From contig JAPLJF010000033.1 in NCBI GenBank assembly GCA_026388715.1, positions 1 through 64,000 on the forward strand: a DNA stretch of 64,000 bases, in the 5' to 3' direction. The notes beneath the pieces were generated by a model. The model saw nothing but the letters and a program-made list of their open reading frames with translations, ran no database searches and was not told where the DNA came from. This document shows positions 45,192 to 47,302 of the stretch, piece after piece (positions within the stretch are counted from its first letter, which is position 1; every line of letters begins with the position of its first letter). This DNA comes from Deltaproteobacteria bacterium (GTDB taxonomy: Bacteria > Desulfobacterota > Desulfobulbia > Desulfobulbales > Desulfocapsaceae). The position numbers were made by a program, and so were the translations under genes.

Positions 45192-45277
45192 GGGAGGGAA
45201 GGAGGGAAGCCGAAGCACAGAGCCGCAAGCTCAAGAAGGGCAGCACCTGGGCATTCTATGTGTTTACGGTCTGGAGA

Positions 45278-45333
45278 TGAATGAATCTTCCCCCAACAAC
45301 CAATAAAAACCAAGAGCGGACTTGACCCCTTTT
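45278..45333. repeat. Dispersed repeat (GAGCGGACTTGACC family), copy A
   Basis: Contains CCCCCAACAACCAATAAAA and AAGAGCGGACTTGACCCC. Related copies are at 52098-52160 and 56011-56115. All are intergenic. Confidence 0.6.
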
Positions 45334-45373
45334 TTGCTTTGACTTTGTCCACACCGTTTTTTTTTCTTTCAAT

Positions 45374-45403
45374 TTGACAAAATCCTATCGGTTGCCCTAT
45401 TCT
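45374..45403 (+). promoter_or_regulatory. Sigma-70-type promoter for the small peptide gene
   Basis: TTGACA (45374-45379), 18-base spacer, TATTCT (45398-45403). It lies 54 bases upstream of the precursor ATG. Confidence 0.55.
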
Positions 45404-45457
45404 ATATATATGGACTTACGGCATGGTGCCGTGTCAAAACATTGGAGGTGATTTGGC

Positions 45458-45562
45458 ATGAAAAAGATCCTCAGCAAAGAAACCCTGGTTAAGGAGGCTG
45501 CCTTCTGGAAAAAGATGGGCAAGGCCATTAAAAAAAATCGCGGTAGGCTTTGCCACAAATGA
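45458..45562 (+). CDS. Candidate RiPP precursor with possible selenocysteine codons
   Basis: 34 residues to the first UGA (45560-45562), opening M-K-K-I-L-S-K-E-T-L and rich in lysine, with a single Cys in R-L-C-H-K just before the stop. GGAGGTGA precedes the ATG. The same frame continues K-G, a second UGA (45569-45571), K-T-E and then UAA at 45581-45583. The hairpin 45584-45599 begins 12 bases after the second UGA, with the loop 18 and 27 bases from the two UGAs. Readthrough would give a 41-residue peptide with two Sec. A radical SAM/SPASM maturase follows 135 bases downstream, the usual layout for a modified peptide. The coding call is moderate; the Sec reading is a hypothesis. Confidence 0.6.
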   Translation: MKKILSKETLVKEAAFWKKMGKAIKKNRGRLCHK

Positions 45563-45583
45563 AAGGGCTGAAAGACTGAATAA

Positions 45584-45599
45584 GTTGCCGGTCGGCAAC
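45584..45599 (+). promoter_or_regulatory. SECIS-like hairpin
   Basis: GTTGCC-GGTC-GGCAAC, a 6-bp stem with loop GGUC. The bacterial SECIS of E. coli fdhF, as I recall it, has GUUGCAGGUCUGCACC starting 12 bases after the UGA. The stem, loop and spacing are the same here. Confidence 0.55.
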
Positions 45600-45609
45600 G
45601 AAGCCCAAC

Positions 45610-45650
45610 GGGCAGATGTGATCGGACGATGCATCTGCCCATTTTTTTTC
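45610..45650 (+). terminator. Rho-independent terminator between precursor and maturase
   Basis: Stem GGGCAGATG / CATCTGCCC with a following run of eight T. It would let the precursor be made in excess over the downstream enzyme. Confidence 0.8.
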
Positions 45651-45697
45651 ATTATGAAGTGAATATCATCTTCTGTTGAACAGAGGTCAAAAAACCG

Positions 45698-46747
45698 ATG
45701 CCCATTAGCAGTTTCCAGGAATTCTTTGTCCAATGGCACCTGACCGAAAGATGCAACCTGCGCTGCAGCCACTGCTATCAAACGGGCGGCAAGATCGCTG
45801 AACTTTCCCTGGCCGAGATCCGGGAGGTGCTGGACGAAATTGTCGAGATGCTTGCGGCCTGGAGCAAGGCTTACCAGGTTGAGTTTTCCCCGAGTTTTAA
45901 CGTCACCGGCGGCGAGCCCTTCCTTCGCGATGACCTTTTCGATATTCTCCACGACATGAGATCCCGGGGGTTCGCCACCTATCTGCTGACCAACGGCACC
46001 CTGATAGATGCCCAAAAGGCGGCGGCGCTGGCCGAGTGCGGCGTAAAAGGCGTCCAGGTGAGTATCGAGGGGCCGGAAGAAATTCACGACCAGATCCGGG
46101 GCCAGGGCAGTTTCAGTGCTTCCTGCCAAGGCGTCGCCCATCTTCTTGCCGCCGGTCATAAAGTGACCCTGAATGCCACCCTGTCGGAGATCAATGCTGA
46201 AAAATTCCACGACCTGGTTGATATTGCCACCTTGCTCGGGGTCCAGCGGCTGGGATTTTCACGACTGGTGCCTTCTGGCCGGGGCCTGGACCTGGTCGAC
46301 CAGATGATCGGCCGGGACAAGCTCCGGGAAATATATGAGGCTATCTTTGCCCTCTCCACCCCTGGTCTTGAGATCGTCACCGGTGACCCTGTGGCCTCGC
46401 AGATGAGAAATGGGGACGGAGCGGATGATTGCGGATCGATAGCGACCGGCGGTTGCGCCGCCGGGGTTGCGGGCCTGACGCTCCTCCCTGACGGCACCGT
46501 CACCCCCTGCCGGAGGCTGGCAGTTCCAATCGGCAATGTACGGGAGGATTCGTTAAGGGAGATCTGGGCTGGTTCCGAGATTCTTGAACAACTTCGGGAC
46601 CGTAGCCGATATAAAGGTCGATGCGGCAGTTGCGCCAGGTGGGCTCATTGTCGGGGCTGCCGGGCAATCGCCTACGCCCATTCTCTTTCCCGGGGCAGGG
46701 GTGACCTCCTGGCCGAAGACCCCCAGTGTTTTATCAATTGTGCTTAA
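45698..46747 (+). CDS. Radical SAM/SPASM peptide maturase
   Basis: 349 residues. The 4Fe-4S radical SAM motif C19-x3-C23-x2-C26 (C-N-L-R-C-S-H-C) is followed by G-G-E-P-F near residue 72. The C-terminal SPASM region has C-R-R-L-A-V-P-I-G-N and C-G-S-C...H-C-R-G-C-R, ligating auxiliary clusters. This architecture is that of peptide-modifying enzymes such as those acting on RiPP precursors. It lies directly after a tiny lysine-rich gene. Selenobiotic-type (SbtM-like) maturases are a possible match given the UGA codons, but I cannot confirm the subfamily. Confidence 0.85.
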   Translation: MPISSFQEFFVQWHLTERCNLRCSHCYQTGGKIAELSLAEIREVLDEIVEMLAAWSKAYQVEFSPSFNVTGGEPFLRDDLFDILHDMRSRGFATYLLTNGTLIDAQKAAALAECGVKGVQVSIEGPEEIHDQIRGQGSFSASCQGVAHLLAAGHKVTLNATLSEINAEKFHDLVDIATLLGVQRLGFSRLVPSGRGLDLVDQMIGRDKLREIYEAIFALSTPGLEIVTGDPVASQMRNGDGADDCGSIATGGCAAGVAGLTLLPDGTVTPCRRLAVPIGNVREDSLREIWAGSEILEQLRDRSRYKGRCGSCARWAHCRGCRAIAYAHSLSRGRGDLLAEDPQCFINCA

Positions 46748-46768: not shown

Positions 46769-47302
46769 ATGGCGAAATGGAATATTGATCCTGATCATTC
46801 GGTAGCGGCATTCAATGTGCGGCACATGATGGCCGCCCATGTCCGCGGCCAGTTCAACAAATTAAGCGGTTCGGCCCGGTTCGACCCGGCTGATCGCTCC
46901 TCTTTTTCCCTGGAAGTTACCATTGATGCCACCGGTCTTTATACTGGTATCGCACAACGGGACGCACATCTTTCCAGTCCCGATTTTTTCGACCTGGCAA
47001 TCTACCCGACCATATCCTTTAAAAGTACTGGCTTCAAGGCGTCAGATGGTGGCGGAAGGCTCGCCGGCGATTTGACCATTCACGGTGTCACTCAACCGAT
47101 CACCCTGGATGTCAAGTTTTCAGGACCCGTGACCTGTCCTGAGGACTTCGGCGGAGAGACCATCCTCGGCATCACAGCTACAGCCTCGATAAATCGTGAA
47201 GAATTCGGCATGTCCTGGAACATGCCCATGAATGACGGGGGCGTGGTGGTCGGCAAGGATATCTGGATTGATCTTGATATCGAGGCCGATCTGGAAGAAT
47301 AA
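46769..47302 (+). CDS. YceI-family lipid-binding protein, cytoplasmic form
   Basis: 177 residues. The YceI lipocalin-like barrel is recognised by W-N-I-D-P-D-H-S, F-N-V-R-H-M, G-Q-F-N-K-L-S-G, the H-L-S-S-P-D-F-F-D block near 68 and G-D-L-T-I-H-G-V-T. These bind polyisoprenoids or amphiphiles. No signal peptide is present, unlike E. coli YceI. AAGGAGAAG precedes the start. It is 21 bases after the radical SAM gene, so possibly co-transcribed with it. Confidence 0.9.
   Translation: MAKWNIDPDHSVAAFNVRHMMAAHVRGQFNKLSGSARFDPADRSSFSLEVTIDATGLYTGIAQRDAHLSSPDFFDLAIYPTISFKSTGFKASDGGGRLAGDLTIHGVTQPITLDVKFSGPVTCPEDFGGETILGITATASINREEFGMSWNMPMNDGGVVVGKDIWIDLDIEADLEE

Follow-up and report, generated by a model that had tools for sequence, protein, structure and literature searches.

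SbtA and SbtM reportedly form a thio(seleno)oxazole RiPP system, and the work is said to be that of Lewis et al. in 2021. In the available text of two sources, the system appears as a thio(seleno)oxazole RiPP or 'selenobacteriocin', represented by the models TIGR04081 and TIGR04082 (PMC13188914, PMC11002830). SbtM takes four hydrogens off peptides containing Cys or selenocysteine (Sec), and for the Cys substrate NMR established a thiooxazole, according to the accessible part of PMC11002830. Table 1 of PMC13188914, as far as it is available, holds one selenoprotein of the RiPP type, the selenobacteriocin TIGR04081, and has no entry for a short CxxUxxU peptide that neighbours a radical SAM gene. 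The UxxU spacing of two Sec residues occurs there in a Prx-like thiol:disulfide oxidoreductase, the metal-binding protein NF041115 and an FmdB-family protein. These are listed in other protein families (PMC13188914).

A second group of relatives are the maturases of ranthipeptides (PapB, CteB) and sactipeptides (SkfB), which share a SPASM fold and a small Cys-bearing substrate. Their natural substrates bear Cys, not Sec. When the PapB substrate is substituted with Sec, it contacts the auxiliary cluster and gives a selenoether in vitro (available text of PMC10470005).

Here we describe a locus within a 64,000-nucleotide stretch of DNA, called the window throughout. Like SbtA/SbtM, it combines a small precursor predicted to contain Sec, a Sec insertion element right after a UGA, and a radical SAM/SPASM enzyme as maturase (PMC13188914 and PMC11002830, available text). 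It thus resembles a Sec-containing radical SAM RiPP, yet fails the tests for TIGR04081 and TIGR04082. SbtA carries the motif SGUG, whereas the window family ends in CxKUKxUK[S/T] at its very C-terminus and lacks SGUG. The preliminary description of this locus had proposed a comparison with SbtM-type maturases, and this turned out negative: the enzyme scores 139 bits against TIGR04082, where the cut-off is 350, and membership was rejected. It aligns to positions 199-507 of the 516-position profile, so that the first ~200 positions have no counterpart. TIGR04081, which we assume to be present in the NCBIfam library searched, matched neither the window peptide (E<=10) nor 28 members of its family (E<=1). 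No model of the June 2026 NCBIfam library matched these 28 peptides convincingly, the best being the membrane protein SkfF with E 0.0033. A literature search by title or abstract returned no paper on this pair of peptide and enzyme; a mention in Haft and Tolstoy 2025 or Lewis et al. 2021 is possible. Such genes are easily overlooked in annotation because the open reading frame (ORF) seems to end at UGA after ~34 codons. The locus seems to represent a new family of natural peptides that contain selenium.

Layout of the locus

The features of the locus are as follows.

45374..45403, + strand: promoter-like site TTGACA-N18-TATTCT upstream of the peptide gene (consensus scan, 10/12 matches; weak evidence)
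45444..45451, + strand: ribosome-binding site GGAGGTGA, 6 nt before the ATG (from the sequence)
45458..45583, + strand: predicted selenopeptide gene, MKKILSKETLVKEAAFWKKMGKAIKKNRGRLCHKUKGUKTE, 41 aa with two Sec (from translation with UGA as Sec, and from homologues)
45560..45562, + strand: UGA1 (position 1), read as Sec35
45569..45571, + strand: UGA2 (position 2), read as Sec38
45584..45599, + strand: bacterial SECIS element GTTGCC-GGTC-GGCAAC, directly 3' of the UAA stop (from fold, covariation and shuffles)
45610..45649, + strand: hairpin followed by eight T, a probable intrinsic or partial terminator between the peptide and enzyme genes (from the fold)
45698..46747, + strand: radical SAM/SPASM enzyme, 349 aa, the proposed maturase (Pfam PF04055, Radical_SAM, and PF13186, SPASM, both over cut-off)
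46769..47302, + strand: YceI-domain protein, 21 nt downstream of the enzyme gene (Pfam YceI)

The peptide frame opens with the ATG at 45458-45460 and runs for 34 codons, translated MKKILSKETLVKEAAFWKKMGKAIKKNRGRLCHK, up to UGA1. Past this codon, Lys-Gly, UGA2, Lys-Thr-Glu and a UAA at 45581-45583 follow in frame. The preliminary description had reported a 34-codon gene with a good ribosome site and a frame running on through K-G-UGA-K-T-E-UAA, which is correct to the base, and the radical SAM/SPASM enzyme that it placed downstream is indeed encoded there. Its terminator behind the SECIS hairpin stood in part: folding yields the hairpin and T-run at 45610-45649, but a simple terminator scan of 45200-45760 listed none, this hairpin included.

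Many of the homologous peptide starts are also preceded by a ribosome-binding site like GGAGGTGA. This is no independent test, since the starts were chosen by a simple score with a bonus for such a site; those of L063, L090, L099 and L112 are among the ones that are probably too short. Promoter-like consensus sites number 3 in the region, counting both strands, against a shuffle mean of 0.4. A gathering-threshold Rfam scan of the window gave no match. A reverse-strand ORF at 45397-45642 was considered as a gene and rejected; it recurs in 5 of the 25 loci compared, and we read it as a shadow of the peptide gene. The YceI gene is possibly co-transcribed with the enzyme in the window but lies outside the conserved system, with a homologue near the enzyme in 3/25 loci (the window, L058 and L145).

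Conservation at and beyond the two UGA codons

We compared 61 non-identical peptide genes, leaving out L094 as a duplicate of L059. The loci are a subset of all enzyme matches; the set takes in L022, which lies at a contig start and has no start codon, and L035, which lies at a contig end with no enzyme and comes from a genome (G142) outside the 70 enzyme-bearing ones discussed below. Position 1 is UGA in 59 of the 61 genes and Cys (UGC) in the other two. At position 2, 60 genes have UGA and one (L020) has UAA. The terminal stop, two or three codons after position 2, serves as an internal control for how freely stops change at these genes, and it is UAA in 25, UGA in 24 and UAG in 12. On a maximum-likelihood enzyme tree of 59 of the 61 loci and 4 outgroup rows, the terminal stop requires a minimum of 22 changes, position 1 two and position 2 one.

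The surrounding residues are conserved as protein. A Cys stands three residues before position 1 in 61/61 genes, and the residue after position 2 is Lys in 60 and Arg in one. The codon after position 2 changes at least 11 times on the enzyme tree, its amino acid once. At the next position, Ser is encoded by AGY codons in 36 genes and by TCN codons in 6. Codon changes under a constant amino acid, together with the two kinds of Ser codon, point to protein-level selection downstream of UGA2. The N-terminal half contains a conserved EAxFW motif, with E13 and W17 invariant in 28/28 peptides, and the tail follows CxKUKxUK[S/T].

Could the UGAs be ordinary stops, so that a 34-residue peptide ends at UGA1 and the remainder is chance? 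UGA does act as terminal stop in 24/61 genes, and one homologue has UAA at position 2. However, position 1 is UAA or UAG in 0/61, its sole replacement being Cys; the residues past both UGAs are kept under synonymous codon change, and the SECIS stem covaries (see below). We regard this explanation as close to refuted. The preliminary description had named a loss of conservation past the first UGA, and UAA or UAG in place of UGA in homologues, as findings that would speak against Sec. Conservation continues past both UGAs, and the second expectation is borne out nowhere at position 1 but once at position 2. Bias from a search motif containing UGA was considered and rejected: when the fetched loci were searched with a profile built on the N-terminal part alone, it recovered the known peptides, none besides them with UAA or UAG at position 1, and one unrelated weak match (E 0.88, in L121).

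The two positions differ in the kind of evidence. Sec/Cys exchange is seen at position 1 only, with UGC in L021 and L026. The reading of position 2 as Sec rests on conservation and spacing rather than on such exchange, as none of the 61 homologues has Cys there. In L021 and L026, where position 1 is Cys, UGA2 could be a plain stop, which counts against both positions being Sec in every member; the UAA of L020 likewise counts against the two-Sec reading. L020, L021, L023 and L026 form one divergent clade on the enzyme tree. L020, L021 and L026 come from two genomes, G194 and G260, and G194 has one copy of each type (Cys at position 1; UAA at position 2). Judged from these comparisons, Sec insertion at both UGAs appears close to certain for most family members, and the window peptide very probably carries two selenocysteines near its end.

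A covarying hairpin behind the stop codon

Exactly 12 bases separate UGA2 from the start of the hairpin, and the distance to the GG of its loop is 18 nt for UGA2 and 27 nt for UGA1. Both the 12-base spacing and the placing of both UGAs 16-37 bases from the loop had been given in the preliminary description and are exact. The stretch from UGA2 through the hairpin folds at -9.2 kcal/mol, with this hairpin as its sole structure. Taken alone, the fold z-score is modest (-1.48; 14/200 shuffles fold as well). The bSECIS model in the available text of PMC13188914 has a loop of 3-9 nt, an upper stem of 4-16 bp, G in the first two loop positions, a distance of 16-37 nt from UGA to loop and an MFE <= -7.5 kcal/mol. 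With a GG loop of 4 nt, a stem of 6 bp, and the distances and energy given above, the window hairpin lies within all of these limits (PMC13188914).

We then scored a hairpin of at least 6 Watson-Crick pairs whose GG-bearing apical loop lies 16-37 nt after UGA2. For the window stretch, this feature arose in 20/5000 dinucleotide shuffles; across all 61 homologous loci it is present at 56, against 19/3050 shuffles. The arrangement of peptide, UGA and hairpin is not due to chance. In a stem-swap test on 57 of the 61 loci, with halves exchanged only between loci with different 5' hexamers, stems of at least 6 Watson-Crick pairs formed from 52/57 own halves and from 3/2436 swapped halves. Variants include GTTGCC/GGCAAC, GTTGCT/AGCAAC, GTTGCA/TGCAAC and ATTGCC/GGCAAT, and the 5' hexamer changed at least 13 times on the enzyme tree. 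The hairpin stem covaries across homologues, as the preliminary description had suggested checking.

Four loci were left out of the swap test: L010 and L011, with a 7-bp stem and the loop TGGAT; L016, with GCCGCC-AGGT-GGCGGC; and L119, whose hairpin lies 38 nt from UGA2, just beyond the usual range, and was counted against the reading. In the 59 loci whose loop starts with GG, this GG follows UGA2 by 16-23 nt in 56 (mostly 16-18), by 15 in two and by 38 in one. Where the terminal stop is itself UGA (24 loci), it lies 5-13 nt from the hairpin loop. This is below the usual minimum of 16, so such a codon can presumably remain a stop. An enclosing lower stem, GGGCU/AGCCC, is predicted in the window but was rejected as a part of the SECIS because it is absent from the fold of the 94% relative L057.

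Selenocysteine machinery

Sec machinery, whose absence would have weighed against the preliminary description, is present in the window genome: a tRNA-Sec with anticodon UCA (70.6 bits, at G000:C25:203447), SelB (392.5 bits, cut-off 242.25) and SelA (614.3 bits, cut-off 267.9). SelA is over cut-off in 20/20 enzyme-bearing genomes tested, and SelB in all three genomes of L057-L059. SelB is also over cut-off in 353/395 genomes of the window's phylum, and its presence is therefore not discriminating. Among the 17 enzyme-bearing genomes of that phylum, the best matches of G009 (85% complete) and G113 (76%) were far too weak for SelB, which counts against the two-gene selenopeptide reading.

The window genome has a second tRNA-Sec match over the Rfam cut-off, at G000:C4:19021-19119 on the minus strand (L002:1501-1599; 58.5 bits, UCA anticodon), for which ARAGORN made no call. 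A genome with two tRNA-Sec genes would be unusual.

Distribution and pairing of peptide and enzyme

Searches with the enzyme found it in 17/395 genomes of the window's phylum (E<=1e-60), in 6/29, 19/46 (E<=1e-70) and 3/5 genomes of three orders, in 32/245 genomes of the phylum of a Nitrospirae record (E<=1e-80) and at 3 loci of a contig collection. As these sets overlap, the total of 70 enzyme-bearing genomes, from two phyla, is a hand count over them. A break in the scores delimits the family, from E 3e-73 to 4e-54 in the 46-genome order and from E 3e-87 to 6e-70 in the 245-genome phylum.

The window's two nearest records are Desulfobulbaceae MAGs with enzymes 94% and 84% identical. In the 395-genome search, the other two genomes of the window's genus and the single one of its family gave no enzyme match. 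This absence from close relatives, and the way in which the two phyla intermingle in the tree, suggest that the system was transferred horizontally.

A peptide gene was found in 65/70 enzyme-bearing genomes, as expected of a RiPP, in which a small precursor gene is paired with a modifying enzyme, and in agreement with the peptide-modification layout that the preliminary description had seen in the window. In 62 genomes the peptide gene lies on the same contig near the enzyme or an enzyme fragment. The gap reaches 649 nt in G118; in G652 the peptide adjoins an enzyme fragment, and in G401, at the edge of a contig, only part of it matches (E 0.044). In G417, peptide and enzyme lie near the ends of separate contigs. 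The five genomes without a peptide gene include G413 and G400, where contig breaks may hide it, and G425, G439 and G444, where a genome-wide search found none; these three count against strict pairing.

The pairing also bears on whether the ORF, UGAs and hairpin are a mere regulatory leader, a selenium-sensing attenuator that acts on the radical SAM gene via the intervening terminator. A terminator-like hairpin is present in the window and in 28 of the 49 homologous gaps longer than 60 nt, as judged by a loose heuristic that had no shuffle control. However, at 10 loci the two genes are separated by 5-28 nt, too little for such a terminator, and G581 and G660 carry the enzyme on one contig and an intact peptide gene, hairpin included, on a different one. 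The N-terminal half is, moreover, conserved as protein through E13 and W17. A pure attenuator was rejected on the peptide genes in trans and the short gaps, and we hold the attenuator reading to be highly improbable. The stand-alone genes of G581 and G660 (L151 on G581:C19, L154 on G660:C81) have different neighbour genes.

A conserved gene neighbourhood was looked for in 25 loci and rejected. The enzyme itself clusters in 22/25. Next comes an ABC-type ATPase, identified by eye, which occurs in 6 loci at varying distances; the shadow ORF follows with 5 loci, and YceI and four further families are each present in 3. No conserved protease, exporter or immunity gene was found beside the pair in these loci. 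The lack of conserved neighbours speaks for a role inside the cell rather than for an exported antimicrobial.

Eight Nitrospirota genomes have more distant enzyme matches (37-43% identity, E 1e-58 to 1e-70), with no such peptide in the fetched loci (L120-L127). At seven of the eight, an upstream frame ends in a Cys/Gly/Ser-rich tail, and in L121 a 321-aa protein ending in CSGCGGGGGD overlaps the start of the enzyme ORF. These frames may encode another Cys-rich substrate.

The radical SAM/SPASM enzyme

The cysteines C19, C23 and C26 (CxxxCxxC) and the SPASM cysteines C253, C271, C309, C312, C318, C321 and C344 are invariant in 17/17 aligned enzymes. With a radical SAM core that starts inside the first dozen residues, the enzyme has no space for an RRE-type domain at its N-terminus. 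Two family enzyme genes, in L076 (G436) and L098 (G666), contain one internal stop codon each (TAG and TAA), a sign of gene decay or of an error in the assembly.

No NCBIfam model reaches its own cut-off against the window enzyme. The best are AhbD (186.7/500 bits), NirJ2 (178.9/500) and the ACGX system (167.8/400); NirJ reaches 158.1 of 515.45, PapB 77.1 of 340 and SkfB 68.8 of 300. The AhbD, NirJ and ACGX-system enzymes share the domain layout of the window enzyme, and the AhbD, ACGX, NirJ2 and SbtM models match all 17 enzyme members, the window enzyme below their cut-offs. Membership among the AhbD/NirJ haem enzymes was rejected since the cut-offs are missed by far. That haem-pathway models (AhbD, NirJ2) outscore those of peptide maturases, all of them far below cut-off, counts against the maturase reading.

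A profile search of PDB sequences yielded 11 matches led by SkfB, PqqE, 5wgg (which we take to be CteB) and anSME, with cytosylglucuronate decarboxylase, MoaA and a lipid enzyme further down. The AlphaFold model of the enzyme (pLDDT 87.1) is nearest in fold to SuiB, PqqE, SkfB and anSME, with ChlB, BlsE and MoaA also within the first 20. The closest solved folds are thus mostly peptide- or protein-modifying enzymes.

These results bear on a further possibility, that the two-Sec peptide is no RiPP but already complete as translated, a miniature selenoprotein (C-x-x-U-x-x-U) for redox reactions or metal binding. The enzyme would then have some other substrate, and the peptide would donate electrons to the enzyme or carry metal, sulfur or selenium for it. 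CxxU and UxxU are usual selenoprotein motifs (Table 1 of PMC13188914, as available), accessory genes such as a protease or exporter are not conserved nearby in the 25 loci, and the best NCBIfam models are haem-pathway SPASM enzymes. Against this stand the near-strict pairing with one enzyme clade (65/70 genomes), the position of a ~40-residue gene directly before a SPASM enzyme, which is the usual layout of precursor and maturase, and the nearest solved folds. We consider a finished selenoprotein of this kind unlikely.

Proposed mechanism and implications

We consider it probable that the locus encodes a two-gene selenopeptide system, comprising a peptide with two Sec residues, its SECIS, and a radical SAM/SPASM enzyme that modifies the Sec-rich tail. 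In a first step, a 41-residue peptide would be made with Sec at both UGAs by the host SelA, SelB and tRNA-Sec, the one hairpin just behind the stop codon directing both insertions. Sec at both UGAs is strongly supported by the sequence comparisons. Where a third UGA ends the frame (24/61 homologues), it would be too near the hairpin and act as a true stop.

In a second step, the N-terminal half with its EAxFW motif may serve as leader and recognition region for the radical SAM/SPASM enzyme. The possible leader and core would be the conserved N-terminal EAxFW part and the C-terminal Sec tail; no conserved protease lies nearby in the 25 loci. The enzyme's radical SAM cluster and its SPASM auxiliary clusters would then bind and oxidatively modify the C-x-K-U-K-x-U-K tail. 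That the enzyme acts on CxKUKxUK[S/T] is our inference; it is also the RiPP part of the preliminary description, whose interpretation is otherwise supported. The products would most likely contain Se-C bonds, perhaps S-C bonds, for example as selenoethers. Se-C bond formation is most likely the chemistry, although any single product falls short of even probability. The final Sec-rich, modified peptide may be used within the cell, perhaps as a cofactor for redox reactions or metal binding, since no exporter, protease or immunity gene was seen to accompany the pair.

On balance, we lean narrowly towards a fuller reading of this two-gene system. The peptides would form an undescribed, widespread double-Sec family in which Sec is the substrate of a dedicated radical SAM enzyme and ends up in a selenium-crosslinked cofactor. 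One SECIS would serve two UGAs nine bases apart, while a third, nearer UGA stays a stop.

In the available text of PMC13188914 and PMC11002830, natural Sec-containing RiPPs otherwise amount to one family, SbtA/SbtM. The locus would add a second precursor family with another motif, spread over two phyla, with UxxU close to the C-terminal end and a layout reduced to two genes. Such a family would open the questions of how a radical SAM/SPASM enzyme handles selenium and why a cell would pay two Sec per 40-residue peptide. It would also let one ask how a single SECIS decodes two close UGAs and leaves the third as a stop.
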